DNA of 20,219 nt from a virus. The stretch lies in the IMG/VR virus record IMGVR_UViG_3300009702_000094, positions 1 to 20,219 of that record. One strand, given 5' to 3'. This document shows, piece by piece, positions 118 to 17,585 of this stretch (its first letter is position 1; each line of letters opens with the position of its first letter). Position numbers and translations under genes: made by a program. The notes under the pieces were generated by a model. It was not told where the DNA came from, did no database searches, and saw nothing but the letters and a program-made list of their open reading frames with translations.

Positions 118-174
118 GAACTACTGCTCAGCGTCGCTTGTGCGCGAAAACGCAAGCAGGACGAGCAGTAGTTC
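118..174 (+). promoter_or_regulatory. Long RNA hairpin just before the capsid gene start
   Basis: A perfect 12-bp inverted repeat (GAACTACTGCTC at 118-129, GAGCAGTAGTTC at 163-174) encloses further pairing: 133-135 with 160-162, and GCTTG 136-140 with CAAGC 153-157. The hairpin ends four bases before the capsid ATG at 179. The only purine-rich, Shine-Dalgarno-like bases (AGGACGAG, 158-165) lie in its 3' arm. No T-tract follows, so it does not look like an intrinsic terminator. It could control capsid translation or be an RNase III processing site. The rest of 1-178 holds no recognisable gene. Two forward frames are open from the window edge to stops near 96 and 112, either of which could be the tail of an upstream gene. 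Confidence 0.6.
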
Positions 175-178
175 ACTC

Positions 179-1231
179 ATGGCGAAGACAAGCTATGGGG
201 TCAATCACCCCCTAGCCGTCAAGAAGTGGTCTCGCAACCTCATGGTCGAGGCGCTGAAGGAGACTTACGCGCTTCGGTTCATGGGGTCGGGAGCGAACGC
301 ACTCTGTCAGATCAAGAACGAGGTCCACGAGGTCGGTAACAAGGTCACCTACGGGCTTCAGATGCAACTGGCGGGAAGCGGCGTTTCCGGGGACGACACG
401 CTCGAAGGTCAGGAAGAAGGGTTGGTCCTGTACAACGACAGCCTCACGGTCAATCAACTGCGTCATGCGGTTCGGTCGGCCGGGAAGATGTCGGAGCAGA
501 GGGTCCCCTTCAGCGTACGCGCCGAGGCTCGGGACGGGCTTGCGGACTGGTGGGCGGACAAGATCGACACCGCTTTCTTCAACCAGCTCGCCGGCTACGA
601 TCCGTCCGATGTGCGTCTCTCCGGCCTGAACAGCGTCACGTCCCCCTCGACGAATCGGAAGATCATCTACGACCAGAACGGAACGACGCATTCAACCGAG
701 GCCAGCCTCGACGCGTCGGACACGTTCAACCTGCAGTTGATCGACTGGGCAGTCGAGAAGGCGGAGACCGCGACTCCCCTCATCCGTCCCGTCCGTTACA
801 TGGGCGAGCGGTACTACTGCATGTTCCTCCACCCCTTCCAGGTGACGTCCTTGCGGACGAACACCAACACGGGGCAGTGGCAGGACATCCAGAAAGCCGC
901 GATGCAGGGTGGCCAGGTCTCGAAGAACCCCATCTTTACCGGGGCCCTCGGGGTCTACAACAACGTCATCCTGCACAAGTCCACGCGGGTTCCGACGCCC
1001 TCCTCGAACGTGTATCGCGCCGTTTTCGCGGGCGCGCAGTCGGCCGGCATCGCCTTCGGGCGAGAGACGACCAACGCCAACACGTTCTCCTGGGCGGAGG
1101 AACTGTTCGACTACGGCAACCAGCTCGGCGTCGCCGCCGGTGCGATCTGGGGATTGAAGAAGTGCATCTTCAATTCCGAGGACTACGGCACCATCGTAGT
1201 CAGCACCTACGGTGCGGCGAAGACTTCCTAA
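179..1231 (+). CDS. Major capsid protein, N4 gp56-like family
   Basis: This is the subunit of the icosahedral shell, an HK97-fold protein by family. The 350-residue product begins MAKTSYGVNHPLAVKKWSRN, which matches the typical opening of N4 gp56-like capsid proteins. The family pattern continues through the acidic stretch near residues 75-85 and the YGNQLGVAAGAIWG segment near the C-terminus. Length is normal for the family. An upstream in-frame GTG at 140 would add 13 residues, but that extension lies in the hairpin and lacks a ribosome-binding site, so ATG 179 is preferred. The gene ends with TAA, directly followed by the binding site of the next gene. Family assignment rests on recognition, not a search. 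Confidence 0.9.
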   Translation: MAKTSYGVNHPLAVKKWSRNLMVEALKETYALRFMGSGANALCQIKNEVHEVGNKVTYGLQMQLAGSGVSGDDTLEGQEEGLVLYNDSLTVNQLRHAVRSAGKMSEQRVPFSVRAEARDGLADWWADKIDTAFFNQLAGYDPSDVRLSGLNSVTSPSTNRKIIYDQNGTTHSTEASLDASDTFNLQLIDWAVEKAETATPLIRPVRYMGERYYCMFLHPFQVTSLRTNTNTGQWQDIQKAAMQGGQVSKNPIFTGALGVYNNVILHKSTRVPTPSSNVYRAVFAGAQSAGIAFGRETTNANTFSWAEELFDYGNQLGVAAGAIWGLKKCIFNSEDYGTIVVSTYGAAKTS

Positions 1232-1243
1232 GGAGGGTTCAAC

Positions 1244-1699
1244 ATGGCAACGCTAACCGCCACACCCGCCGACACCGGAAGCCAGCCCCGAGCCATCCAT
1301 GCCGGAGCGAACGTCGCCCGCGGCGTCTACAGTCTCTCCGCCGACATCGCGAACGGAGACGTGCTGCAGATGGTGAAGGTCCCCAACGGAGCGGTCATCG
1401 ACGATGTCGTCATCGCCCGTACTTCCGAAACCGGCCTCGTGGTCGGATGGGTGTGCGGCGACGGTGATGACACCGACCGTTTCATTCGCAGTGCGATCAC
1501 GAGTTTGACCGCGGATGCCGGCGGCGCCCTCTCGCGCCTCGACAGCCCCGTAGGGCTCGGGTATCGGTACAACTTCAGCGACGCTGTCGTACAGCCGGAG
1601 GACACGGTCGATATCGTGATCTCCAGCGTCAGTGGCGGCGGCTCGCTGGGGCACATCACCTGCGAGGTGACCTTCCACCTGGACGAGGCGGCGGACTGA
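1244..1699 (+). CDS. Small capsid-associated (decoration-like) protein
   Basis: A 151-residue protein starts 12 bases after the capsid stop, behind a strong AGGAGGG ribosome-binding site (about 1231-1237). It is rich in Ala, Gly, Asp and Val, has no signal peptide or membrane segment, and alternates short hydrophobic stretches in a beta-rich pattern (for example NGDVLQMVKVPNGAVIDDVV near residues 38-57). Small proteins encoded immediately after an N4-like capsid gene are often head decoration or capsid-stabilising proteins, and that is the inferred role. No catalytic motif is visible. It shares a transcript with the capsid gene and is closed by the terminator at 1725, so it is probably made in large amounts. 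Confidence 0.65.
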   Translation: MATLTATPADTGSQPRAIHAGANVARGVYSLSADIANGDVLQMVKVPNGAVIDDVVIARTSETGLVVGWVCGDGDDTDRFIRSAITSLTADAGGALSRLDSPVGLGYRYNFSDAVVQPEDTVDIVISSVSGGGSLGHITCEVTFHLDEAAD

Positions 1700-1724: not shown

Positions 1725-1757
1725 GGGGCGGGGTGACTCCCGCCCCATTTCTTTTCT
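1725..1757 (+). terminator. Rho-independent terminator after the capsid genes
   Basis: GGGGCGGG (1725-1732) pairs perfectly with CCCGCCCC (1739-1746) around a 6-base loop, and the T-rich run ATTTCTTTTCT follows. It lies 25 bases after the stop of the capsid-associated gene. It should end or attenuate transcription there, separating high-level capsid mRNA from the genes downstream. Confidence 0.85.
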
Positions 1758-1811: not shown

Positions 1812-3263
1812 ATGAAGCGAGTATCTCTGGTCGATGTTCTTGAGCAGGCGCAAGCCTATCTAGCCCAAGAGAAATGGAACGAGGTGATCGAGTCACTTCG
1901 TATCGCCCTCGACCAGAAGCCGGACGACCCCCACCTGCTGTTCTTCATGGCCGCGGCATTCATGGGCCGCGACCACTACGGCATCGCATCCAACCTCCTC
2001 GTACGAGCGATCAGCGTTCGTCCCGACATGGCGGAAGCATGGTCCAACCTCGGGATCTGTTATCGCCGGTCCGGGTCCGTCGAGAAGGCACAGGATGCCT
2101 TCAAGCGGTCTCACGAGATGGGATTCCCGGGGTCCACGACGAACCTGTCGGCCTGCTACGTGAACGAGGGCGAGCCGGAGGAAGGCGAACGCTGGGCCCG
2201 GGAGGCGCTCGAGCGCGACCCATCCGACGAGCGCGCCTCGTGGAACCTCGCCCTGTGCCTGCTGGAGCAGAAGAAGTGGGTCGAAGGATTCCAGGCCTAT
2301 GTTCGCGGGGCGATGTACGAGAAGCGGCTCCAGCGCACCTACACCGAGATTGCGAAAGGGTCAGATCCGAAGGACCGGAAGAACCGGACTCCGATCCTGA
2401 CTTCGCTCGATGACCTGAAGTCTGGGGACGCGGTGGCTATCTACGGGGAGCAGGGCCTCGGGGACGAGGTCATGTTCCTGTCTTGCATGGACGAGTTCCT
2501 CAATGCCTGGAAAGGGCGCACCTACCTCGAGGTCATGGAGGGGCTCGAGCTCGTTTGCCGGCGAACCTGGGGCGACCGCATCGAGGTCTACGGCACCCGC
2601 GGTTCCGATTTCATGACCTGGCCCGTGGACCGGCATGTTGACTGGTCTTGCCCGGTGGGCAATCTGCCCGCGTTCTTCCGCACCAACGATGAAGACTTCA
2701 TGAGTCGGCCGAACGTGCTCGGCTACCTCAAGCCAAACGAGGTGCTCACGAAGGCCTATCGCCAGCAACTCGACGTGCTCTCAGGGGGGCGCCCGACCAT
2801 CGGCATCGCCTGGACGGGTGGCATCCGCAAAACGATGACGCACTACCGGTCACTGTCCCTGGAGGAGATGTACCCCCTCGTTTCCGGGGACGAATTCTGC
2901 TGGGTATCCTTACAGCACGACGACGACGAGTCCGAGATAGAGGCATTCGAGCGCATCTACGGTGTCACGATCCACCGCATGCCGGAGGCGGCGGCCTCGA
3001 AGAACCTCGACCGCACGATGGCCCTCCTCGACGCGCTCGACATGGTCGTCACCGTCTGCTGCTCGGTACACCACTTCGCCGGGGCAATCGGCAAGCCGTG
3101 CTACACGCTGGTCCCATCCGCGCCGGCATGGAGGTACAACCTCAGCGGGGAGATAAACGTCTGGTATCCGGCGACCTGTCGGATGTTCCGTCAGGTGAAG
3201 GAGGACGAAGGATGGACGAGAGTAGTCGAACAGGTACGGCTAGCCCTTCTGGAGAGGTTCTAG
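1812..3263 (+). CDS. TPR-repeat protein with glycosyltransferase (GT9/GT41-like) domain
   Basis: The 483-residue protein has an N-terminal run of about four TPR helical pairs (residues 8-150, with A/W-N-LG-Y/C patterns such as AWSNLGICYRRSG) followed by a GT-B-like transferase domain. The latter shows YGEQGLGDE at 211-219, IGIAWTGG at 330-337 and VHHFAGAIGKP at 419-429. This arrangement occurs in TPR-linked heptosyltransferase or O-GlcNAc-transferase-like proteins, where the repeats bind an acceptor and the C-terminal domain transfers a sugar from a nucleotide donor. Donor and acceptor cannot be read here. GGGGAA at 1801-1806 serves as ribosome-binding site. It is the first gene of the cassette, it is cytosolic, and its 3' end overlaps the methyltransferase start by 52 bases. 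It ends with TAG. Confidence 0.8.
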   Translation: MKRVSLVDVLEQAQAYLAQEKWNEVIESLRIALDQKPDDPHLLFFMAAAFMGRDHYGIASNLLVRAISVRPDMAEAWSNLGICYRRSGSVEKAQDAFKRSHEMGFPGSTTNLSACYVNEGEPEEGERWAREALERDPSDERASWNLALCLLEQKKWVEGFQAYVRGAMYEKRLQRTYTEIAKGSDPKDRKNRTPILTSLDDLKSGDAVAIYGEQGLGDEVMFLSCMDEFLNAWKGRTYLEVMEGLELVCRRTWGDRIEVYGTRGSDFMTWPVDRHVDWSCPVGNLPAFFRTNDEDFMSRPNVLGYLKPNEVLTKAYRQQLDVLSGGRPTIGIAWTGGIRKTMTHYRSLSLEEMYPLVSGDEFCWVSLQHDDDESEIEAFERIYGVTIHRMPEAAASKNLDRTMALLDALDMVVTVCCSVHHFAGAIGKPCYTLVPSAPAWRYNLSGEINVWYPATCRMFRQVKEDEGWTRVVEQVRLALLERF

Positions 3264-3853
3264 ACCTCGAGGACATGCGGCACGGTCTCGTGCGGCAGGT
3301 CAGCTCTGACCTTCGCGGCATTCGTCCCGATCACCCGGAACGATACCGGTGGGCCAAGGAATTGATCGCCGATAATTATCCCGTGATCGACATCGGGTGT
3401 GGGATCGGTTACGGATCCTGGATCCTCGGCGAAAGACTCCCCGTCACCGGCATTGACGCTTCGCACCGTGCCATCGCCTACGCTCGCCGATACTGGTCGA
3501 GCCCGAACGTCACATACCATGTCGTAAGCATCGAATCTTTTCGGGACTACAGACAGTACGGACATGCGGTCATGTTCGAGGTGATCGAGCACCTGCAGGA
3601 CCCGCTGCCGTTTCTCTCGGAGCTCGCCTATGCCGTGCCTGAGCTCTACTGCTCCGTTCCGAACGAGGACGTCGTGCCGTTCAGCCCGCGGGCGAACCCC
3701 GAGCACTGTCGGCACTACACCCCGGACCAGTTCGGAGAACTTCTCACATCGGCCGGCTGGAAGATCAAACAGAAGGCGATGCAGAAATCGAAGACGTCCG
3801 TGGTCGAGCCCGGGTTCGATGGGCGCACCCTCCTCCTGAGGTGCGTGTCGTGA
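3212..3853 (+). CDS. Class I SAM-dependent methyltransferase
   Basis: The 213-residue product carries the SAM-binding glycine loop VIDIGCGIGYG (D60, G62, G64, G66), the second-strand GIDAS motif and FEVIEHLQDP (122-131), typical of UbiE/UbiG-like Rossmann methyltransferases. ATG 3212 is chosen because AGGAGG (3199-3204) stands seven bases upstream; longer in-frame readings would run back inside the glycosyltransferase gene. It overlaps that gene by 52 bases and the next gene by four, implying coupled translation. Similar enzymes in sugar clusters methylate saccharides, but the substrate here is inferred only from the neighbours. Confidence 0.85.
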   Translation: MDESSRTGTASPSGEVLDLEDMRHGLVRQVSSDLRGIRPDHPERYRWAKELIADNYPVIDIGCGIGYGSWILGERLPVTGIDASHRAIAYARRYWSSPNVTYHVVSIESFRDYRQYGHAVMFEVIEHLQDPLPFLSELAYAVPELYCSVPNEDVVPFSPRANPEHCRHYTPDQFGELLTSAGWKIKQKAMQKSKTSVVEPGFDGRTLLLRCVS

Positions 3854-4698
3854 AGGTCCACGTCTACTATCCAGCCTACGACCGGCATCATCGAGACGTC
3901 CTCGAAGCGTTCCGAGACGGGGTCCTTGCTTCCGGTGACGAGGTCGACCTCGTTCCCGCTGCCGCATACGATCCGCAGGAGCCGCCCGACATAGCGGTCA
4001 CCTTCGGCGTATTCAAGCGGGCCATCCGGCAGAGTGAAGACCGCGGGCGGGTCATCGAGGGGCAGAAAGCGGCCGGGAAACCGTGGCTCGTTCTCGAGAC
4101 CGGCTACGTGAAGCGCGACCGATACTATGCCGCCGGCTGGGAAGGTCTGAACGGACGAGCGAACTTCCGCAACCGGGACATGCCGGCGGACCGATGGGAC
4201 CTCCTCGAGGTGGAACTCCAGCCCTGGCGTGACCCGGTCGAGGCCGGGCCTATCCTCCTGTGCGGCCAGGTTCCGTGGGACGCTTCGGTGCAGGACCATG
4301 AGCATCGGGCGTGGCTGGAGGACATAGCGCAACAGATCATGGCGCGGAGCGGGCGGGAGTTGCTCTTCTCACCACATCCGCTCGGCCCGATGTACACGGT
4401 GGCGGGACTGCAGTGCGCTCCCGGGCGGACCCTGCTGGAGAAGGCTCGCGGGTGCTGGTGTGTCGTGACCTTCTCGTCGAACAGCGCAGTCGAGGCGGCG
4501 ATCGCTGGCATCCCGGTGTTCGCCTTCGATGAGGGGTCTATGGCCTTGCCGGTCGCGAATCGCAGCATCGCCAACCTCGACAACCCGGTCACGCCGGACC
4601 GCACGCAGTGGGCGCACGACCTCGCTTACACCCAGTGGACGCTTGAGGAGTTCCGGGCCGGCCTGGCGTGGAAACACCTGACCGAGGAGAGACCATGA
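3850..4698 (+). CDS. Putative GT-B-like glycosyltransferase or capsule-synthesis-like protein
   Basis: The protein has 282 residues. Its most telling part is the C-terminal segment FSSNSAVEAAIAGIPVF (208-224), followed by GSMALPVANRS. This resembles the donor-binding half of GT-B enzymes and of capsule/Kdo-type transferases, where Ser-Asn-Ser and Glu contact the nucleotide sugar. An earlier segment, ELLFSPHPLGP, fits the same fold. GTG 3850 gives a GTGA overlap with the methyltransferase stop and has GAGGTG eight bases upstream; GTG 3841 is an alternative adding three residues. The N-terminal half is less typical, so the exact reaction is unknown. Its place between a methyltransferase and another transferase supports a role in glycan building. 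Confidence 0.6.
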   Translation: MKVHVYYPAYDRHHRDVLEAFRDGVLASGDEVDLVPAAAYDPQEPPDIAVTFGVFKRAIRQSEDRGRVIEGQKAAGKPWLVLETGYVKRDRYYAAGWEGLNGRANFRNRDMPADRWDLLEVELQPWRDPVEAGPILLCGQVPWDASVQDHEHRAWLEDIAQQIMARSGRELLFSPHPLGPMYTVAGLQCAPGRTLLEKARGCWCVVTFSSNSAVEAAIAGIPVFAFDEGSMALPVANRSIANLDNPVTPDRTQWAHDLAYTQWTLEEFRAGLAWKHLTEERP

Positions 4699-5525
4699 GG
4701 CCCGTCACTATCATCACGTCGTTTCCGCCCGACGCGTGGGACGCTTACGCTCGCGAGTTCGTCGAGGGGTTCCTCCTCGCCTGGCCGGATTATAAGCTCG
4801 TCATCTATCACGAGGAGGATGCTTCGGCGAAGAGAAAGCTCGACCACGCACGGATCCGATGGATGTCATTGTGGGACATCGAGTACCTGAAAGACTTCGT
4901 CATGACCATCGGCCAGTCGCCGCCGATGCGCGGCGTCCTGCAGGGGCCGGACGGGAAGAAGGCGTACTCCTATCGCCACGACGCTTATCGATGGGCGCGA
5001 AAATCTTTCGCGATTCACCATGCGGCGACGACCTACCCCGGCATCGTTGTTTGGCTCGACGCAGACATCGTCACGCATTCCCGAGTGCCGGACGAATTCA
5101 TCGAGGGGCTCTTCCCACCCGGCGTGCATCATGCCTACCTCGGCCGCGAAGCGATCCACATGTACTCGGAGACGGGATTCCTCGGCTTCGACACGATGTG
5201 CCCCGGGCACGACATCTTCATGAAGACCATGAGGGCTATCTGGCTGTCGGGCGCCTTTCAGCTACTGTCTGAATGGCATTGCTGCCACGTGTTCGACTTC
5301 ACCCGGAAGCTCGTGCAGACGACCGGAAACAATCTCACGCCGAAGACGTACGGGGGGATCCATCCGTTCATCAATTCGGTACTCGGGGATTACATGGACC
5401 ATCGCAAAGGAGGGCGCAAGGAAAGCCGGTCCGCGCCGAGCGAACGCGTCGTGCCGAGCCTTCACCCCTACTGGCAGGAGGAACCGGACTATGCCAAGAC
5501 CGCAATCAATCACCGGAGCGGTTGA
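4695..5525 (+). CDS. GT-A-like glycosyltransferase
   Basis: A 276-residue protein with a DxD motif in VVWLDADIV (D122, D124), the usual metal and nucleotide-sugar site of GT-A transferases. It is preceded by the helix YRHDAYRWARKSFAI, which leads into the metal site in related proteins. No signal peptide or membrane segment is visible. ATG 4695 gives an ATGA overlap with the previous stop and has GAGGAG four bases before it. Its last 35 bases overlap the radical SAM gene. The family is recognised by motif only; donor and acceptor are unknown. It is probably a cytosolic partner of the other cassette enzymes. Confidence 0.7.
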   Translation: MRPVTIITSFPPDAWDAYAREFVEGFLLAWPDYKLVIYHEEDASAKRKLDHARIRWMSLWDIEYLKDFVMTIGQSPPMRGVLQGPDGKKAYSYRHDAYRWARKSFAIHHAATTYPGIVVWLDADIVTHSRVPDEFIEGLFPPGVHHAYLGREAIHMYSETGFLGFDTMCPGHDIFMKTMRAIWLSGAFQLLSEWHCCHVFDFTRKLVQTTGNNLTPKTYGGIHPFINSVLGDYMDHRKGGRKESRSAPSERVVPSLHPYWQEEPDYAKTAINHRSG

Positions 5526-6447
5526 CAACATCACATCCATGTCGAGCGAGTGGTGTAGCTCGACATTGCCGCCGCCGCCCTCGGTCAAAATCGAACTCAC
5601 GAGTCGGTGCAACTTCAACTGCGCGTTCTGCGCGCACTCGCAGAAGCACCGGAAGAACCAGGACATGGACCGCGGGTTTTACCGCTCCCTGGTCGCCGAG
5701 CTTGCCGCGCTCGGGGTCAAGGAGGTCGGCATGTTCTTTCTCGGGGAGTCGACGATCCTCCCCTGGCTGCCCTGGGCCATCGCCGAGGCGGCCGAGCACA
5801 ACTTCGACCTCGTCTTTCTCACGACGAACGGGTCCCTCGTCACCAAGGACAAGGCGCGAGATTACATGGTCGCCGGCCTCGGCGGTCTCAAGTTCAGCCT
5901 GAACTACGCGAGTCCGCATCAGATGTCCCGCGTGGCCGGCGTGAAGCCGCAGCTCTGGCAGGACGTTATCGACAACCTCAAGGGCGCTTACCGGGTGCGC
6001 CAGGAACTCGGGGCGGACTGCGGCATCTACGTCAGCTACATCGAGTACGACGACCAACAGGCGGGAGAGATGGAGCCCGTCCTGCGCGAGGTCCGCGACT
6101 TCTGCGACGAGATGTACTCGTTGCCCCTGTATTCTCAGGCTACGCTGGCCGAGAGTCAGGAACGCGCCGAGGGATGGGCGCCGACGCCCGGCAACCGCGG
6201 GCGCGCCGGCAATCTCCGAGACCCGCTTCCCTGCTGGTCTATCTTCAAGGAGGGGCATGTCACCGTCGATGGCCGGCTCGTCGGGTGCTGCTTCTCCCAC
6301 GAGCCCGAACGATTCGATTTCGGAGATCTCACCCAGGGTCGTTTCATGGACGCATGGAATTCGCCGGCTGCCCGGGCCCTCCGGTCCGCCCATCTGCAAC
6401 AGGATGTCGTCGGGACGGCATGCGAGAAGTGCGTGCTATATGAATGA
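5491..6447 (+). CDS. Radical SAM enzyme with a shortened SPASM-like C-terminus
   Basis: The 318-residue protein has the radical SAM cluster motif CNFNCAFC (C40, C44, C47), which binds a 4Fe-4S cluster and cleaves SAM to a 5'-deoxyadenosyl radical. FLGESTILP fits the SAM-binding GxGEP-like position, and TTNGS follows. The C-terminal part has CWS (C248), GCC (C266, C267) and CEKC (C311, C314), a twitch/SPASM-like set for one auxiliary cluster, fewer than the seven cysteines of full SPASM domains. Such enzymes modify peptides, proteins or sugars by epimerisation, oxidation or cross-linking. Start ATG 5491 has AGGAGG (5476-5481) and overlaps the previous gene by 35 bases. No precursor peptide gene was seen next to it. 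The substrate is unknown. Confidence 0.88.
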   Translation: MPRPQSITGAVDNITSMSSEWCSSTLPPPPSVKIELTSRCNFNCAFCAHSQKHRKNQDMDRGFYRSLVAELAALGVKEVGMFFLGESTILPWLPWAIAEAAEHNFDLVFLTTNGSLVTKDKARDYMVAGLGGLKFSLNYASPHQMSRVAGVKPQLWQDVIDNLKGAYRVRQELGADCGIYVSYIEYDDQQAGEMEPVLREVRDFCDEMYSLPLYSQATLAESQERAEGWAPTPGNRGRAGNLRDPLPCWSIFKEGHVTVDGRLVGCCFSHEPERFDFGDLTQGRFMDAWNSPAARALRSAHLQQDVVGTACEKCVLYE

Positions 6448-7174
6448 GTCGGTAAATCTCTTCATCGGGTTCGACCGCGCCCAGCCCCGGATGTCGTGGG
6501 TCTTCGCTCGGTCCGTACTGGCCCGCGCCAGCATCCCGGTTCACATGACGTTTCTGTTCCGACCGATGCTCGAGAAAGCGATGCTCTATCTGAGGCCGAA
6601 GAGGGCGGACGAATCGACGGAGTTCACCTTCTCACGTTTCCTCGCTCCGAGCCTCGCGGGCGACTGGGTGCTCTTCTGCGACGGCGACATGCTCTGCCTC
6701 GACGATATCGCGCAACTGTGGGCCCTGCGGGACGATGACTACGCAGTGATGTGCGTTCACCACCCGGAATACAATCCGGCGCCGATCAAGATGGTCGGGA
6801 AGGCGCAGACGTCCCATCCTCGAAAGAACTGGTCATCGGTGATGCTCATCAACTGCCGGCATCCGGCAACGAGCAACCTCGACGCGCAATACGTGGCGAA
6901 TGCCTCTCCCGCAGAGCTGCATCAATTCACATGGGCCGAGGGGGCAGTGGGCGAGATCCCGCCACGCTGGAACCATCTCGTGGGGTATACTGATACCGTA
7001 TCCCCTCCAGGGATTGTACACTTCACCGATGGGGGTCCGTGGCTCCCCGGGTTCGAAGACGTCCCATTCGCCCAGGAGTGGCGAGAAGAGGCGAGAATGA
7101 TGGGCATCTCAGTGAGCACCGGAGAGCATGGTAATGAGCGATCTGGGCACTCTGAAGAGCCGTATTCGCCGTGA
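6440..7174 (+). CDS. GT-A-like glycosyltransferase, last gene of the cassette
   Basis: The 244-residue product starts MNESVNLFIGFDRAQ and carries a DGD motif in VLFCDGDMLCL (D81, D83), matching the metal site of GT-A (GT8-like) transferases. PRKNWSSVMLINC follows at the distance where such enzymes close the donor site. ATG 6440 overlaps the radical SAM stop (ATGAATGA); its ribosome-binding site is weak, so it probably relies on coupling. The end overlaps the adaptor gene by 41 bases, which ties the cassette to the tail operon. The last 25 residues, across the overlap, are hydrophilic and may be non-essential. Confidence 0.72.
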   Translation: MNESVNLFIGFDRAQPRMSWVFARSVLARASIPVHMTFLFRPMLEKAMLYLRPKRADESTEFTFSRFLAPSLAGDWVLFCDGDMLCLDDIAQLWALRDDDYAVMCVHHPEYNPAPIKMVGKAQTSHPRKNWSSVMLINCRHPATSNLDAQYVANASPAELHQFTWAEGAVGEIPPRWNHLVGYTDTVSPPGIVHFTDGGPWLPGFEDVPFAQEWREEARMMGISVSTGEHGNERSGHSEEPYSP

Positions 7175-7796
7175 GTTAAACCGCGCCAGCCTTCGGTCCG
7201 ATGTCGTCGTCGACGAGATTGAGTCGGCGATCCGCCACTACAAGGGCAAGCGTTTCATCTTCAATTCGGTTCTGCGCGAGACCATCTCCGGGTCCTCGGG
7301 CACCGCGGTGCTCACAATCTCGACGGCATCCTCCCTGGTCCAAGTCGACCACGTCGTCCTACTCTGGCCCTCATCCACCTTCCGCGAAAGCCTCCGGCAA
7401 CGCCCGGTCGAGTGGCTCGAGCGCCGGTTCACGACGAACAACTACCGCAGCCGACCGAGCTACTGGGGCGTCCAGGGCGACACCATCGTGTTCGACACCA
7501 TCCAGGATGCCGACTACGACTACGTCCTGAACTACGTCAAGGAGTTGTCGGCCCTGACCTCGGACACCGCAACGAACGCGTGGATGGTCGAGGGCGAGGA
7601 ACTCATCCGCACGCGAGCCAAGCAGAAAATCCTCAAGAACTACATCCGCGGGACGGCCGCCCGCGCCGAGGCGAAGGAACTGGCCGGCGACGAACGCGAG
7701 ACGTATCGCGAGCTTCGGTCTCGTCAGACGCAACGCGAGGCTGGCGGCGACGTCATTCCCTGGGGCCCCGGCTCGCATCGTTCCTGGAACGAATGA
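7134..7796 (+). CDS. Head-tail adaptor protein (SU10/gp6-like)
   Basis: A 220-residue protein beginning MSDLGTLKSRIRRELNRASL. It has the helical opening and the HYKGKRFIFN segment typical of phage adaptor proteins that form a ring below the portal and link head to tail, then a beta-rich middle (QRPVEWLERR, YRSRPSYWGVQGD) and a charged helical C-terminus. ATG 7134 has GGAGAG (7121-7126) at proper spacing; ATG 7128 is an alternative with poor spacing. In many phages this gene follows the capsid genes directly, so here it is displaced by the six-gene cassette. Assigned from sequence pattern and position. Confidence 0.75.
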   Translation: MSDLGTLKSRIRRELNRASLRSDVVVDEIESAIRHYKGKRFIFNSVLRETISGSSGTAVLTISTASSLVQVDHVVLLWPSSTFRESLRQRPVEWLERRFTTNNYRSRPSYWGVQGDTIVFDTIQDADYDYVLNYVKELSALTSDTATNAWMVEGEELIRTRAKQKILKNYIRGTAARAEAKELAGDERETYRELRSRQTQREAGGDVIPWGPGSHRSWNE

Positions 7797-12247: not shown

Positions 12248-13384
12248 ATGTTCAATTTCCCAGATCTCTCGAAAATGGACCCGCGCACGATGGCGATGCT
12301 TGCGCTCGGCACCCGGCTTGCCCAGCAAGGGCAGCGGCAGGCGCCCGGCGCCGCCCCCGCGGGCCTCGGAAATGCGTTCTCGCACTGGATGCAGGACCTC
12401 TCCTCTATCCAGAACAACTCGCGCATCAATGCCCTGTACAAGCTCAAGATGCAGGAGGCGAAGCAGAAAGGCGACGAACGGGCGCGGCAGCAAGCGGCGC
12501 AGGATAAGACCATCGAGGCGATCCACAAACGGGTCGACGCCGGAAAGCTGTCCGCGGCTCGTGCTCAAACGCTCATCGCCCAGGTCGAGGCGGGGCAGTA
12601 CGGCGGCGCCAGTACGGCACTCGCGCCGAAGCCGAGCTACGGCAAGGAGCGCACCATCAACGTGCCGGGGCTGGGTTCCGCTATCGTGCAACCGGTCACC
12701 ATGCCGGACGGCAGCACCAAGCTGGTTCCCCTCGCGCGATTTCCGAAGCCGACACTGAGCCTCGCCGCTCAGATGGCCGGCATGTACGGAGGGCTCGGAG
12801 CTGGAGCCGGAGCCGGAACTTCGACGACGGGGCTCACCGACAAGGACATCTCCGCAGCGGCCCATGGTGGCGCCAAACCTGGATGGCTCGATACAGGACT
12901 CGGGGCAGTGCGTGGCGCCATCGAGCGTGGACTTCCCTACGTCGACCCCCTCTACAAGACAGCAATCAACACGGCTTCGAATGAGATGGGGGCTGTCGCG
13001 CCGTATATCCGGGGCAAAGAAGCTGCGGGCATCGTTGGGGGACTGCTGAACAAGGGACGGCTTGCCGCGGCAAGCGGGATCGGTTCTGCCGCCGCTGCCG
13101 TGGTCCCGAATATCAAGAGGGGATTGGGCCTCAACGTCACGTCCTCCGGTCCTGTGGGGAACCAGAAGAACCTTTACTACGGGGAGACGAACCAGCCGTA
13201 CGCGAACCTCATGGAGAAGTTCAACGCATCCGTGCCGGGCGCTGGCGGCGCGCCCGTGCGTCCGCCGGCCGCTTTCTACCTCTGGCTCCGGCAGAACAAG
13301 AACATCGACAAGAGGGCCCGGCAAGACATCGCTCGCCGCTATCGCGCAATCTACGACCGGTACAATCAAGCGCAGGGGCGCTAG
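12248..13384 (+). CDS. Putative second ejection (internal virion) protein
   Basis: The 378-residue protein opens with MFNFPDLSKMDPRTMAMLAL and a Gln/Lys/Ala-rich helical stretch (residues 55-110). A Gly/Ala-rich, partly hydrophobic centre follows (about 175-290), and the C-terminus is basic (LRQNKNIDKRARQDIARRYR). Composition and place match proteins that travel with the phage DNA into the host. GCGGGG upstream is a weak ribosome-binding site, and the gap to the previous stop is only 18 bases. It ends with TAG one base before the next start. No enzymatic motif seen. Confidence 0.62.
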   Translation: MFNFPDLSKMDPRTMAMLALGTRLAQQGQRQAPGAAPAGLGNAFSHWMQDLSSIQNNSRINALYKLKMQEAKQKGDERARQQAAQDKTIEAIHKRVDAGKLSAARAQTLIAQVEAGQYGGASTALAPKPSYGKERTINVPGLGSAIVQPVTMPDGSTKLVPLARFPKPTLSLAAQMAGMYGGLGAGAGAGTSTTGLTDKDISAAAHGGAKPGWLDTGLGAVRGAIERGLPYVDPLYKTAINTASNEMGAVAPYIRGKEAAGIVGGLLNKGRLAAASGIGSAAAAVVPNIKRGLGLNVTSSGPVGNQKNLYYGETNQPYANLMEKFNASVPGAGGAPVRPPAAFYLWLRQNKNIDKRARQDIARRYRAIYDRYNQAQGR

Positions 13385-13385
13385 C

Positions 13386-16300
13386 GTGCTCGACTTCCCG
13401 ACTTTCTCCCGCGGTCTGCGGAAGCTCAGGCCTGAACTCGGGACGCCGGAGGTCCGTGCCGCGTACGAGCAACGCTACGGGGTCAAGCTACCCGAAGAGC
13501 GCGGCCTGCTCGGGGAAATCGGCGCCGGCCTCGCCGCGGGAGCGTATGGACTTGGAGGCCTCGCCGGCACCGGGGTACGTCTCGCCGGCAAGGGCCTCGG
13601 CAGTGAAGGGATGGAGACCTTCGGCGGCCTCATGGAAGCTGCGGGAGAGGAACGGGCAGCGAAGTTCCCTGCCTCGCCGTCCATCTCCGGTTCCCCGTGG
13701 GACGATCCCTCCTTGCTCCTCAACCCGAAGTTCTACCTTCGCGGCATCGGAGAATTCGGACCGTCGATGCTGCTCCCGATGGGCGCTGGCGGCATGGCGG
13801 CCCGGGCGGGCCTCGGCACTCTTGGCCGGGCGGCGGCAGCGAGCGCGGCAGGCGCGCCGCTCTTCGGCCTCGACGCCGCGCGCATGGCGGAGCAGGCCGG
13901 GAATGACCCCGGGCAGGCATTCGTCGGCCAGACTGTCGCGGCCGGTCTTCTGGGTATGCTGCCCATGTCCCAGGTCTTCGGGGGCGGGAACTTGGCCCGG
14001 CGCGCAATCGGCGGCGCAGTAGGCCAGGGTCTATCCATGGGCCTCATGCAGCCGACCCAGCGCATGGCCGCCCTCGGCGAGGACCCGGTTACCGCATTCC
14101 AGCGCGCCGCACCCGCGATGGCACAGGTTGGACCCATCGCCGCGCTCACGGGGCTAGGCATGGGCGTGGTGGGCGACCCGAGCCGCACTCCCATAGCGCC
14201 GCCTCAGAGATCTCCCGCGAGAGAGGCTAATTTGCCCGCTCAGGAAGGGGTGCCAAATCTGGCGGAATTGGCGGTAGCCGAGCCAAAGGCGGCCAAGTAC
14301 GGCAAGACCGCAGCGCCACTCAAGAACAAGGCCGGCGACTACCGGCGCAATGCGGCCGGCGACATCGCAGGCGCGCCCCCGGGAATCAAGACCGAGGCGG
14401 ACGTCGATGCTCTGGTGAGGAAGATCACTGCGCATCTCGATCACCCGCTATCAGCAACCGCCCCGGAGGACGGGAGTCCCTCGAGCCTTTACTGGTACGA
14501 CCGTTCTGGCGAAGGGATCCGCGAAGTGACGCGCGGGAACCGTCGTCAGATGGAACGGATGGTTCGCCTCCTCGCCTATCTGTCGGCTGACAACCAGGTC
14601 GGCGGCAACGTGACGGGTGCTATCAAGGCCCTCCATCAATTCGAGCGCGGCAAGACCATGGAAGCGGGTCGATACCCGGATAAGCTCGTCGAAAACGGCC
14701 AGGCTATCATGTCGGCCAAGGTGTTCGACAAGCGTCTCACGGGCGTGTCCGACAAGGTCATGAACTTCTACCGCAACCTCCACGATGCGACGTTCAGGAC
14801 GAACAAGTACGCGAACGCGGGCACGATGGACGTCTGGATGAGCAGACTGCTCGGATACCCGGAGATGGAGAGAACCGACTACGGAAAGGTTACCGGAACG
14901 ACGGCGCGCCTCGGGCCGGCGCAGTACCGCTTCGCCAACATGGTGAACCGGAGGGTCACCGATCTCTACAACCAGCAGAAGGGGACGAAACTTCTGCCTC
15001 GGCAAATCCAGGCCGGGCTGTGGGCATACGCTCGAAATGCGGGGCTGGACCCGGAGTTCACAAAGAGCGCGTCTCCTACCAAACCGAAACCGTACATGGA
15101 CTTCGGCACCTACCTCCAGCGGGCCGAGCAGCACGTCACATTCGAGGCGACTCCGAGCACATCGCTCAAGACCGCTCAATGGCTGGCGAAGGCCCCCTGG
15201 AAGGTGCGCGAGGAATACGCGCGGCGGGTCCTCTCCGCGACCTCGGAGCCCGGCGGCAGGGATGGAGTGCTCGAGCGCATCATGGTCCCCTTGTACCGTA
15301 GCCAACGGTCGGTCGGGACCTACGAGGGCGCACTCAATCCGAACCGCATCACGAGCATCACGTCCCAGAAGAAGACCATCCCCACGGGGCGGCTCAACAA
15401 GCAGGGCAAGCCTACCACCGAGGCCGAGGTCGTCACCGACGACGCCGACCTTTATGCGCTCGCGCAAATGTACATCCACTCGCAGGACGCGGTGCCCTGG
15501 TTCCAGCTCGACCACACCGCGACCGGCGGGGTGCGCGGCGCGTATGCCGAGTTTTCGAAACGCCCCACCCCGCGGGCCCTGGACGCGTTCTATCGCCACC
15601 TGCGCAAGTTCCTGCCGGACGCCGAGTTCACCCTCCTGGACAACAAGGTGCTCGCCATCAACTACGGGTGGGCAGACAAGGACAGCCGGGGGCCCGGGTC
15701 GGTCAACGACAAAAAATTCCAAGACCTGTTCCATCAAGCGGCGGAGTCCTATACAGGACCGGGAGCGAAAGCTATACTTAACGTGGTTACCGACAACGTG
15801 AAAGCGTGGGGGAAATATCATGGCATATGGGACCATTCTCCTGCCGGATGGCAAGACCCGGCTGCCGCGAGTGCGGCGCTTGAAAAGGCGATCAGCGACC
15901 GCGGACGATCCGATCTACTCCCATACCTTCGTAGTCAACGGGACCTCGTTGAACGAGCAAGAGCAGCGTTTGCGCGAGAGCACGCCCAGCGAGCCAAAAG
16001 ACCGAGAGAAATAGGGCTCGACGTCACCATCCCGAAGGACATTCGGGAGAAGGGCGCAACCAGTCTCGTCGGCAAAAAGGTACGCTCGGCCAAGGACCTC
16101 GGCACCCTGGCCCAGGTCTACCGCAATCCGAAGTACGAAACTCTCCGGTACTTCTTCGTCAACGACAAGAACGTCGTCGTCGGGCAGACCGGTGTCTCGT
16201 CGCGCATGCCCGATTCAGCCGCCCTGTTCCCCGGCTCCGAGAAGGTCGACTGGGTAGTGCGGCAAATGCAGAACGTCGGGGCCCGACGCCTATGGATGCT

Positions 16301-17585
16301 CCACAATCATCCGAGCGCTGGACCGAAGCCGAGCACCGCCGACGTGCGCGCAACCTGGGCAGTCAATGATGCTCTGAAGTCGGCTGGCATGGAGGTCGCC
16401 GGCCACGTCGTGATCAACCACGATGCGTTCGCTTCGATCAAAATGCCTCCCCCGGCAAATGCCAATGTTGTTCCGTGGGAGATCATTCAGACGAAGGCTG
16501 GCGCAAAGGGGATCGAGGACCCGTTCGCGAAGGCCTCGCGCCCGCACCCCGTGCTCGGAACCGTCATCAGCAATCCCAACCACGCGATGCTTGTCGGCAA
16601 AATGCTGACGCACTTGCAGGGAGCCGACACGGACTGGCTCGTTGTCGTTGGGCGCAAAGCGCAAACCGGCGGCGTGCGTACCATCATGGAAGTTCCGGCG
16701 TCGACGATGCGGGACTTCGCGCGCGGAAGGGCGATCCTAAGGCAGATCCGCCGGCAGACGGGCTCGGCCGACGCGATGGTAGTAGACCGCGGGAATGTGA
16801 TCCCGGCCGCCCTTCAGGACAGGTACATCGGCGAGGGGCACGCCCTGGACTGGGTCAGCACGTTGCCTGACGGGACGATGCAATCTCGAATGCAAGAGGC
16901 CGCGCCTCCGGTAGTCGAAAGCCCTTCGCCGCCGGGACGCGTCGTTTCAGTATCCGACACGGCGGCGCCATATGCCGACGAACCCCCGCTCCGAACTCGC
17001 GCCCGCACGCGGTCGCCGGAAGATGTGATCGAGCATTCCCGCCGGCACGTTCAGCCATGGCACACGACCCAGGAACTCGCAGACGCGCTCGGGGTGTCCG
17101 AGGCCGAGCTGATGAAGTTCATGCGCCGAAAGGTCGGAAAGAGTTTCAACGCGGAGGAACTCCTGCAGTCTGGCGCGTTCGTCGACGACCTGCACCGGAA
17201 GGTCGAGAGCTTTTCGACCGACTATGTGGACAAGATGAAGGCGGGCACGATCAGCGATGCGGACCGCACCGCGGCAATGGAGCTCCAGCTCGACGCGGTC
17301 ACGCAGATTGCGCAGTTCCTGGGGGTGCGCGCCGAGGCCGGCCGGGCGTTGCAGATCTTTCGGAAGCTGCAGACCGTGGTCGACAAGGCCGAGTACATGC
17401 GGTCCGCGTACGGGGAAGACTCGGTCGATGCACGCATGCTGGCGCTATCGACGATGCCGACGCGTCTCCAGCGGGCCCGGTTCATGCGGAAGACCGCGAC
17501 GCCGACCACCATGGACAAGGTGCTCGAGGCATGGATCAACGGGTTGCTCTCTGGGCCGGCGACCCACATCGTGAATACGACCTAG
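13386..17585 (+). CDS. Giant polyvalent protein with RadC-like JAMM domain, N-terminal 1399 residues
   Basis: GTG 13386 (AGGGG seven bases upstream, one base after the previous stop) begins a frame that runs to an amber codon and then continues in the same frame. Residues 35-240 are Gly/Ala-rich and hydrophobic, as in injected proteins. Residues 330-550 and 560-780 resemble helical and GTYEGALNPN-type segments of large phage polyvalent proteins. A RadC-like JAMM domain covers about 900-1040, with likely zinc ligands H973-x-H975, S983 and D986 (HNHPSAGPKPSTAD). A helix-turn-helix-like ELADALGVSEAEL lies near 1230, and EAGRALQIFRKL near 1320. The product ends GLLSGPATHIVNTT, truncated inside a motif that looks like the conserved GPxTHxVNxxxN of this class. 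It is probably ejected into the host. Confidence 0.8.
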   Translation: MLDFPTFSRGLRKLRPELGTPEVRAAYEQRYGVKLPEERGLLGEIGAGLAAGAYGLGGLAGTGVRLAGKGLGSEGMETFGGLMEAAGEERAAKFPASPSISGSPWDDPSLLLNPKFYLRGIGEFGPSMLLPMGAGGMAARAGLGTLGRAAAASAAGAPLFGLDAARMAEQAGNDPGQAFVGQTVAAGLLGMLPMSQVFGGGNLARRAIGGAVGQGLSMGLMQPTQRMAALGEDPVTAFQRAAPAMAQVGPIAALTGLGMGVVGDPSRTPIAPPQRSPAREANLPAQEGVPNLAELAVAEPKAAKYGKTAAPLKNKAGDYRRNAAGDIAGAPPGIKTEADVDALVRKITAHLDHPLSATAPEDGSPSSLYWYDRSGEGIREVTRGNRRQMERMVRLLAYLSADNQVGGNVTGAIKALHQFERGKTMEAGRYPDKLVENGQAIMSAKVFDKRLTGVSDKVMNFYRNLHDATFRTNKYANAGTMDVWMSRLLGYPEMERTDYGKVTGTTARLGPAQYRFANMVNRRVTDLYNQQKGTKLLPRQIQAGLWAYARNAGLDPEFTKSASPTKPKPYMDFGTYLQRAEQHVTFEATPSTSLKTAQWLAKAPWKVREEYARRVLSATSEPGGRDGVLERIMVPLYRSQRSVGTYEGALNPNRITSITSQKKTIPTGRLNKQGKPTTEAEVVTDDADLYALAQMYIHSQDAVPWFQLDHTATGGVRGAYAEFSKRPTPRALDAFYRHLRKFLPDAEFTLLDNKVLAINYGWADKDSRGPGSVNDKKFQDLFHQAAESYTGPGAKAILNVVTDNVKAWGKYHGIWDHSPAGWQDPAAASAALEKAISDRGRSDLLPYLRSQRDLVERARAAFAREHAQRAKRPREIGLDVTIPKDIREKGATSLVGKKVRSAKDLGTLAQVYRNPKYETLRYFFVNDKNVVVGQTGVSSRMPDSAALFPGSEKVDWVVRQMQNVGARRLWMLHNHPSAGPKPSTADVRATWAVNDALKSAGMEVAGHVVINHDAFASIKMPPPANANVVPWEIIQTKAGAKGIEDPFAKASRPHPVLGTVISNPNHAMLVGKMLTHLQGADTDWLVVVGRKAQTGGVRTIMEVPASTMRDFARGRAILRQIRRQTGSADAMVVDRGNVIPAALQDRYIGEGHALDWVSTLPDGTMQSRMQEAAPPVVESPSPPGRVVSVSDTAAPYADEPPLRTRARTRSPEDVIEHSRRHVQPWHTTQELADALGVSEAELMKFMRRKVGKSFNAEELLQSGAFVDDLHRKVESFSTDYVDKMKAGTISDADRTAAMELQLDAVTQIAQFLGVRAEAGRALQIFRKLQTVVDKAEYMRSAYGEDSVDARMLALSTMPTRLQRARFMRKTATPTTMDKVLEAWINGLLSGPATHIVNTT
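15750..15778 (+). promoter_or_regulatory. Candidate sigma-70-like promoter inside the polyvalent gene
   Basis: TATACA (15750-15755, four of six -35 bases) is followed after exactly 17 bases by TATACT (15773-15778, five of six -10 bases), in a locally AT-enriched stretch. It lies 41 bases before the ATG of the nested frame at 15820, which has GGGGGA (15808-15813) as ribosome-binding site. Both hexamers are imperfect. Confidence 0.4.
15820..16014 (+). CDS. Candidate nested small protein inside the polyvalent gene
   Basis: This 64-residue frame lies one base out of phase with the polyvalent frame. It begins MAYGTILLPDGKTRLPRVRR and ends in a charged segment (QRLRESTPSEPKDREK). It is strongly basic with two beta-prone segments and has no known domain. 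GGGGGA at 15808-15813 is six bases from the ATG, and a promoter-like pair lies at 15750-15778. By hand count about 73% of its codons end in G or C, against about half in the polyvalent frame over the same bases, although the polyvalent frame is GC-ending-rich on both sides. That points to real coding in this frame. Whether both frames are used cannot be decided from sequence. Confidence 0.42.
   Translation: MAYGTILLPDGKTRLPRVRRLKRRSATADDPIYSHTFVVNGTSLNEQEQRLRESTPSEPKDREK
17583..17585 (+). other. In-frame amber codon splitting the polyvalent gene
   Basis: TAG at codon 1400 of the frame starting at 13386. The frame reopens at once (N-T-L-V-Q) and runs 511 more codons. The codon falls where related polyvalent proteins, from memory, have a small residue in GPxTHxVNxxSN. 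One base change (TCG to TAG) would account for it. Weak pairing (GGTGCTCG with CGA/GCACC, 17600-17624) begins 14 bases downstream. Confidence 0.9.

Follow-up and report, generated by a model that had tools for sequence, protein, structure and literature searches.

Six overlapping enzyme genes, placed between the shell genes and the adaptor gene of a phage, probably form a virion-glycosylation module that acts on a protein of the phage shell. They lie in IMG/VR virus record IMGVR_UViG_3300009702_000094, a linear stretch of 20,219 bases that was analyzed at its full length and is called the window here; the six genes are called the cassette. An initial annotation had proposed a phage-encoded glycan pathway among the structural genes, and both the enzyme classes and the conserved placement of the genes support that proposal. 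The first cassette gene encodes TPR-GT, in which a tetratricopeptide repeat (TPR) array precedes a glycosyltransferase (GT) half, and its partners include a radical S-adenosylmethionine (SAM) enzyme. The features are as follows, the gene starts being likely starts, refined by ribosome-binding sites and overlaps.

140..1231, + strand: major capsid protein of the N4-gp56/Phage_capsid_3 type, candidate glycan acceptor (Pfam PF13252, 1e-73; PHROG 334, major head protein, 4e-85)
1244..1699, + strand: small head protein resembling a decoration protein, the other candidate acceptor (position behind the major capsid protein, where the family recurs in relatives; weak PHROG virion structural match, 6e-4)
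1725..1746, + strand: terminator-like hairpin at the boundary of shell genes and cassette (sequence; equivalents in relatives)
1812..3263, + strand: TPR-GT, N-terminal TPR array and C-terminal GT-B (GT9-like) half, proposed protein-recognizing glycan initiator (Pfam, AF2 model, Foldseek)
3212..3853, + strand: class I SAM methyltransferase, proposed to O-methylate a sugar (Pfam Methyltransf_23, 5e-11; start placed from GGAGG)
3850..4698, + strand: GT-B glycosyltransferase with the fold of the CMP-Kdo transferases KpsC and WbbB (AF2 model, Foldseek, conserved GQVPWD)
4695..5525, + strand: GT-A-like protein with a conserved DxD, D122-D124 (DxD; the family recurs in other cassettes)
5491..6447, + strand: radical SAM enzyme with a SPASM domain, proposed to oxidize or epimerize a sugar (Pfam Radical_SAM, 7e-12; SPASM, 2e-10)
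6440..7174, + strand: GT8-type GT-A glycosyltransferase with DGD, PHROG 28018 (Pfam Glyco_transf_8, 25.4 bits against a cut-off of 24.3)
7134..7796, + strand: SU10-type adaptor, which closes the cassette (Pfam SU10_adaptor, 3e-11)

The cassette and its TPR transferase

All six open reading frames (ORFs) are intact and lie on the plus strand, flanked by the decoration-type head gene on one side and the SU10-type adaptor gene on the other. Successive genes overlap by 52, 4, 4, 35, and 8 nt, and the last overlaps the adaptor gene by 41 nt, the methyltransferase being taken to start at 3212, just behind a GGAGG, since an alternative start at 3098 is too far upstream. Only TPR-GT has spacing, 112 nt from the decoration gene, with the hairpin (1725-1746) in between. 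The G+C content of the cassette genes (0.60-0.66) is close to that of the flanks (0.63-0.65), and composition therefore shows no trace of recent import; moreover, each of the six genes has kin in other phages, so the set is not an accident of chance ORFs. Thus the arrangement first described by the initial annotation, six overlapping enzyme genes on one strand from 1812 to 7174 between capsid and adaptor, is all there, and the classes that it gave them (TPR-GT, methyltransferase, GT-A and GT-B types, radical SAM) were borne out by Pfam, motifs, and models. Structure prediction, which it had recommended, returned an OGT/SPINDLY architecture for TPR-GT and a KpsC/WbbB fold for the GT-B-like protein.

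For TPR-GT, Pfam reports TPR families only (down to 6e-16), and the AF2 model (pLDDT 86.5) has a helical array at its N terminus; in Foldseek its best solved matches overall are SPINDLY and the O-GlcNAc transferases (OGT). The catalytic half resembles GT9, with a Z of 17.3 and a root-mean-square deviation of 3.3 over 259 residues for 3tov and a Z of 16.3 for heptosyltransferase II (1psw). A motif, GEQGxGDE, is nearly invariant and aligns at the GxxWVGD stretch of heptosyltransferase II, in a part of the alignment that lacks significance on its own; D218 is a conserved Asp of the protein. As to a GT41-type catalytic sequence, Pfam Glyco_transf_41 gives no match, and a profile of the GT half gives only a weak match to GT9 (1psw, E 0.54). 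Both parts of a TPR protein O-glycosyltransferase, a TPR array at the N terminus and a GT-B domain at the C terminus, are present, and, judged by its model, the protein is a TPR-GT-B glycosyltransferase with the architecture of OGT and SPINDLY and a GT9-like catalytic half.

A useful parallel is FlmG of Caulobacter crescentus, in which an N-terminal TPR domain binds flagellin and a C-terminal GT-B domain modifies it in the cytoplasm, both being required (PMC7591256). Compared by architecture rather than by sequence, FlmG and TPR-GT share the TPR and GT-B parts and a cytoplasmic setting, and the flagellin acceptor of FlmG is likewise the subunit of a large polymer. FlmG differs in using pseudaminic acid from a cellular pathway, whereas the window gene is viral, lies by capsid genes, and has methyltransferase and radical SAM partners. 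By analogy, the TPR half of TPR-GT would bind newly made shell protein, decoration or major capsid protein, in the cytoplasm, and its GT-B half would attach the first sugar, as FlmG does on flagellin and OGT and SPINDLY do on their targets. This sugar would be lengthened into a short glycan by the three other transferases (GT8-type, GT-A-like, and KpsC-like), the KpsC-like one perhaps adding Kdo or a Kdo-like sugar. A sugar alcohol would be oxidized or epimerized by the radical SAM enzyme, and the methyltransferase would cap the glycan. A terminator behind the shell genes would keep enzyme levels low compared with that of the shell protein, which is abundant. That a shell protein serves as acceptor is our inference; another virion protein could do so instead.

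Recurrence behind capsid genes and beside pilin genes

Viral loci were collected by similarity to the cassette and capsid proteins: a search with the capsid protein of the window gave 56 loci, and many more came from the GT8-type, TPR-GT, and radical SAM families used as queries. Some of the 56 have the cassette and others run directly from capsid through decoration to adaptor. There are 103 distinct viral TPR-GTs, and in 81 cases an adaptor gene lies 3′ of the TPR-GT; the genes in between include the GT8-type (64 loci), the small methyltransferase (54), the radical SAM enzyme (26), the GT-A-like protein (7), and the KpsC-like protein (6). In the podoviruses among these loci, TPR-GT is nearly always the first gene behind the decoration gene. 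Counted over all ORFs, a TPR-GT lies within 4 kb of the capsid gene in 83 distinct loci, of which 55 have a capsid protein of the window's family and 28 one of PHROG 1328. The 24 capsid loci with no TPR-GT within 4 kb have a median capsid-adaptor gap of 1.0 kb (about 0.4-2 kb) and no cassette enzyme, except for L341, where TPR-GT lies upstream of the capsid gene, apparently relocated. When the occurrence of TPR-GT is mapped on a 79-protein capsid tree, 4 changes suffice, whereas shuffled labels require 20.9; as read from this tree, TPR-GT is inherited along capsid lineages with few gains and losses. The capsid/cassette/adaptor arrangement is also present in MW202512.1, a complete circular phage genome. 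Misassembly, or a stray bacterial locus, is ruled out by that genome, by scores of contigs, and by the inheritance along the capsid tree.

These results meet the initial annotation at several points. Its premise that capsid and decoration genes usually lead directly into the adaptor gene is true of the cassette-less relatives, and the comparison with such relatives that it had called for reveals only about 1 kb at the site and, L341 excepted, none of the enzymes. The search for the same gene order in other phages, also its suggestion, found that order in MW202512.1 and the contigs, and neither of the outcomes it had named as fatal, a misplaced bacterial locus or genes scattered and unrelated in close relatives, was encountered: the genes keep together. 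Its view of the cassette as unusual is correct for deposited phages, among whose 50,697 records TPR-GT is matched by one and the radical SAM protein by none (E 1e-5), but not for uncultivated relatives, in which the cassette is common. The arrangement is absent from phages of Paracoccus, Rhizobium, and Microcystis, and all three cultured isolates fall in cassette-less groups of the capsid tree. A profile search finds a single decoration family in cassette-bearing and cassette-less phages alike; an apparent division into separate families for the two was an artifact of the BLAST threshold.

Several loci deserve mention in their own right. The first 93 capsid residues of L055 (IMGVR_UViG_3300009702_000532) are 94-95% identical to those of the window; this locus ends within the capsid gene and would supply about 10 kb of upstream genome from a near relative. 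A prophage-like region of Reyranella sp. CPCC 100927 (NZ_VOHA01000004.1, about 361-395 kb; L158 and L376-L378) carries a P22-type portal, capsid, TPR-GT, GT8-type, and adaptor genes, with cellular-type genes (MatE and NMT1-type) between portal and capsid. Capsid/TPR-GT/adaptor loci also occur in bacterial metagenome-assembled genomes of Thiotrichaceae, Bradyrhizobium, and Acidobacteria (L149, L172, and L179), which may be hints of hosts or binned free phages.

The placement is not confined to these two capsid families. In L058 and L342, which have a PHROG 283 major head protein and the head-tail adaptor Ad1, most or all of the window's second to sixth enzymes lie between the capsid gene and the adaptor gene, together with an arabinose-5-phosphate-isomerase-type gene, and in L340 and L320 (PHROG 1005) an enzyme set again lies behind the capsid gene. 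Such sets thus stand behind the capsid genes of at least four families, two podovirus lineages with TPR-GT and two without, and the placement appears to have arisen more than once. No other observation points as strongly to the shell, because late expression alone could be had elsewhere in the structural block.

Bacterial relatives of TPR-GT are often in tandem and joined by members of the small methyltransferase and GT8-type families known from the cassettes. Among the Pfam families of their neighbors, pilin is the commonest (8 of 100; the N-methylation motif in 9), and 12 bacterial loci have a canonical type IV pilin gene no farther than about 1.2 kb from a TPR-GT, several of these loci having the small methyltransferase and GT8-type genes as well. 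From their gene content, such pilin-side clusters are a possible undescribed system of cytoplasmic pilin glycosylation in beta- and gammaproteobacteria. The analogy suggests a shared theme, a TPR transferase encoded next to the gene for a polymer subunit, be it capsid, pilin, or flagellin. Tandem TPR-GTs with methyltransferase and/or GT8-type genes beside type IV major pilin genes are seen in L144, L146 (Methylococcus, a methanotroph), L147, L151, L152, L155, L156, L163, L164, and others.

The same evidence bears on the question of whether the glycan is meant for some virion protein outside the shell (tail fiber, adaptor, or nozzle), with the capsid-side site merely giving late expression. Large virion-like genes do lie between enzyme set and connector in PHROG 283- and PHROG 1005-type phages, as with the 1034-aa, Ser/Thr-rich protein with a carbohydrate-binding malectin domain that sits between enzyme set and head-tail adaptor in L058 (12944-16048). 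Given that the podovirus TPR-GT almost always directly follows the decoration gene and that its bacterial homologues adjoin a filament-forming pilin, we regard a non-shell acceptor as decidedly unlikely.

The hairpin also recurs. Of 55 relatives, 32 have one in the gap that separates the decoration gene from TPR-GT, where shuffled sequences would lead one to expect 0.2; none of 108 control stretches, taken at the stop of TPR-GT, has one, and between capsid and adaptor genes of cassette-less loci it was found in 2 of 23. We infer from this distribution a terminator that would lower enzyme output relative to shell protein.

Partner enzymes and the nature of the product

The GT-B-like protein has no Pfam match. 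Its AF2 model (pLDDT 92.9) matches KpsC and WbbB, which are CMP-Kdo transferases, at a Foldseek E of 1e-8 and with Z of 14.0-13.3 (14.0 over 241 residues, for 6mgb), the next unrelated fold scoring 10.2. With KpsC and WbbB it shares the GT-B fold and the GQVxxD stretch, and it differs from them in consisting of one soluble domain and in belonging to a phage cassette. GQVPWD is kept in the eight nearest cassette homologues and aligned, weakly (E 0.07), with GQVESD of KpsC; the Asp of the stretch, D144, is invariant in those eight and is a putative nucleophile. The donor may perhaps be Kdo or a Kdo-like sugar. A link between isomerase and KpsC-like genes was considered as support for Kdo and dropped: of nine loci with the arabinose-5-phosphate isomerase gene (about six distinct contigs), only two have the KpsC-like gene as well, whereas the radical SAM gene is in all nine; the case for Kdo thus leans mainly on the fold. 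Profile searches of Pfam and PDB with the GT-A-like protein gave no match, and its class therefore rests on the DxD and the neighboring genes. In the GT8-type protein, whose Pfam score barely clears its cut-off, D81 and D83 of the DxD are invariant; the methyltransferase belongs to a Pfam family of the class I SAM fold.

The radical SAM protein has invariant cysteines at C40/C44/C47 (CxxxCxxC) and, in its SPASM domain, at C248/C266/C267/C311/C314. Its nearest solved structure is BtrN (E 3e-12), which oxidizes an alcohol group on an aminocyclitol. Peptides are frequent substrates of SPASM radical SAM enzymes, and some enzymes of ribosomally synthesized and post-translationally modified peptides are among the weaker matches, which raises the notion of an enzyme that matures a peptide to be decorated by the transferases. 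This is very improbable, considering the aminocyclitol-acting best match, the company of the viral radical SAM genes (of 77, 53 have a GT8-type gene no more than 8 kb away, and in 35 the two adjoin directly), and the tight packing of the cassette ORFs, with no precursor-like gene among them. Three radical SAM genes of the cassette family occur in one viral locus, L375, and two each in L365 and L316.

The window has no gene for nucleotide-sugar synthesis, and the donors must therefore be supplied by the host; the completeness that the initial annotation had claimed for the set is thus not supported, and its glycopeptide product and late timing stay conjectural. Relatives do add such genes inside their cassettes: DegT aminotransferase and GDP-mannose-dehydratase types in L307, one of these each in L248 and L250, and a sugar isomerase (SIS/arabinose-5-phosphate isomerase type) in L346 and L058. 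These additions support a glycan as the product, and one of variable structure.

Where such a glycan would go was left by the initial annotation between virions and the host surface. Late remodeling of lipopolysaccharide or capsule, in infection or lysogeny, for superinfection exclusion would suit GT8 and KpsC-like enzymes, which are typical of lipopolysaccharide and capsule loci, and GT8-type relatives do occur in non-structural clusters of larger phages. However, none of the six proteins is membrane-embedded (top 19-residue hydropathy, 1.51), and a membrane GT, a flippase, and a polymerase are absent among them by hydropathy and Pfam; TPR-GT has an architecture of the protein-modifying type; and the site beside the capsid genes is fixed across several capsid families. 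Host-surface remodeling is thus unlikely, and the virion is favored. Hypermodification of phage DNA with sugars, for which virus-encoded glycosyltransferases are known in the summary of Pyle et al. 2024 given in PMC12619734, has only a slight chance of being correct: a thymidylate-synthase-type gene (PF00303) was found in none of 14 related records, with positive controls, and TET/JBP were likewise not found in the same search, though their controls gave no signal. The pilin genes beside the bacterial homologues speak against DNA as well.

Several points weigh against virion glycosylation too. The argument is built on genes, folds, and placement, and no glycan, acceptor, or activity has been observed. 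The loci collected by similarity are mostly fragments and a biased sample. TPR-GT is missing from the enzyme sets of the PHROG 283 and PHROG 1005 phages and so is not always the initiator, and GT8-type relatives in Pelagibacter phage Mosig adjoin ribonucleotide reductase genes, not capsid genes, so that the toolkit is partly used otherwise. Serine makes up 10.6% of the decoration protein in cassette-bearing phages versus 6.8% in cassette-less ones, which is not a clean difference. Ser/Thr enrichment, in decoration or capsid protein, was not used as a sign of the acceptor, the cassette-less decoration set being mostly one clade and near neighbors overlapping.

Known systems and implications

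Virion glycosylation as such is already known. Mycobacteriophages (Che8 and others) carry glycans on capsid and tail-tube subunits, made, like those proposed here, by phage-encoded glycosyltransferases (Freeman et al. 2023, as related in PMC12619734 and PMC11256854). At the sequence level, no mycobacteriophage is among the tblastn matches of the TPR-GT, GT8-type, and radical SAM proteins at E 1e-5, and in the mycobacteriophage Maravista the transferase genes are near the genome end rather than behind the capsid gene. In chlorovirus PBCV-1 the major capsid protein is glycosylated in the cytoplasm by virus-encoded GTs and a sugar O-methyltransferase, A064R, according to the sections of PMC7019647 that deal with it. 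The likeness lies in several viral GTs plus a methyltransferase; the differences are a eukaryotic host and an N-linked glycan, and those sections name no TPR-GT or radical SAM enzyme. Also akin are the pilin-side clusters, with homologous TPR-GT, small methyltransferase, and GT8-type genes and an adjoining polymer-subunit gene, which differ in being bacterial and in having their TPR-GTs in tandem. What appears new is the TPR-GT architecture combined with capsid-side placement, of which we found no description in a literature search that left subscription papers mostly outside.

Whether all this amounts to an undescribed system, widespread among uncultivated phages, that starts a shell glycan with a TPR transferase of OGT/FlmG-like type (a homologue of the pilin-side ones), gives it an unusual sugar through a radical SAM enzyme and a methyltransferase, and came to lie behind the capsid genes of several families independently, is in our judgment evenly balanced. 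If so, decorated shells would be common in uncultured environmental phages and not a peculiarity of mycobacteriophages, and most such systems would have been overlooked because deposited phages hardly carry the genes. Phage capsids, bacterial pili, and flagella would be united by a TPR transferase encoded beside the polymer-subunit gene, and bench work could begin on a modular glycan system and on a radical SAM enzyme that modifies sugars. Roles for a capsid glycan in stability, in shielding from antibodies or receptors, and in adherence to mucus or host glycans would become testable.

Elsewhere in the window, positions 13062-17585 hold a 1507-residue ORF of the structural block, whose PHROG matches are partial and weak (one to a DNA repair family, over residues 1019-1127).

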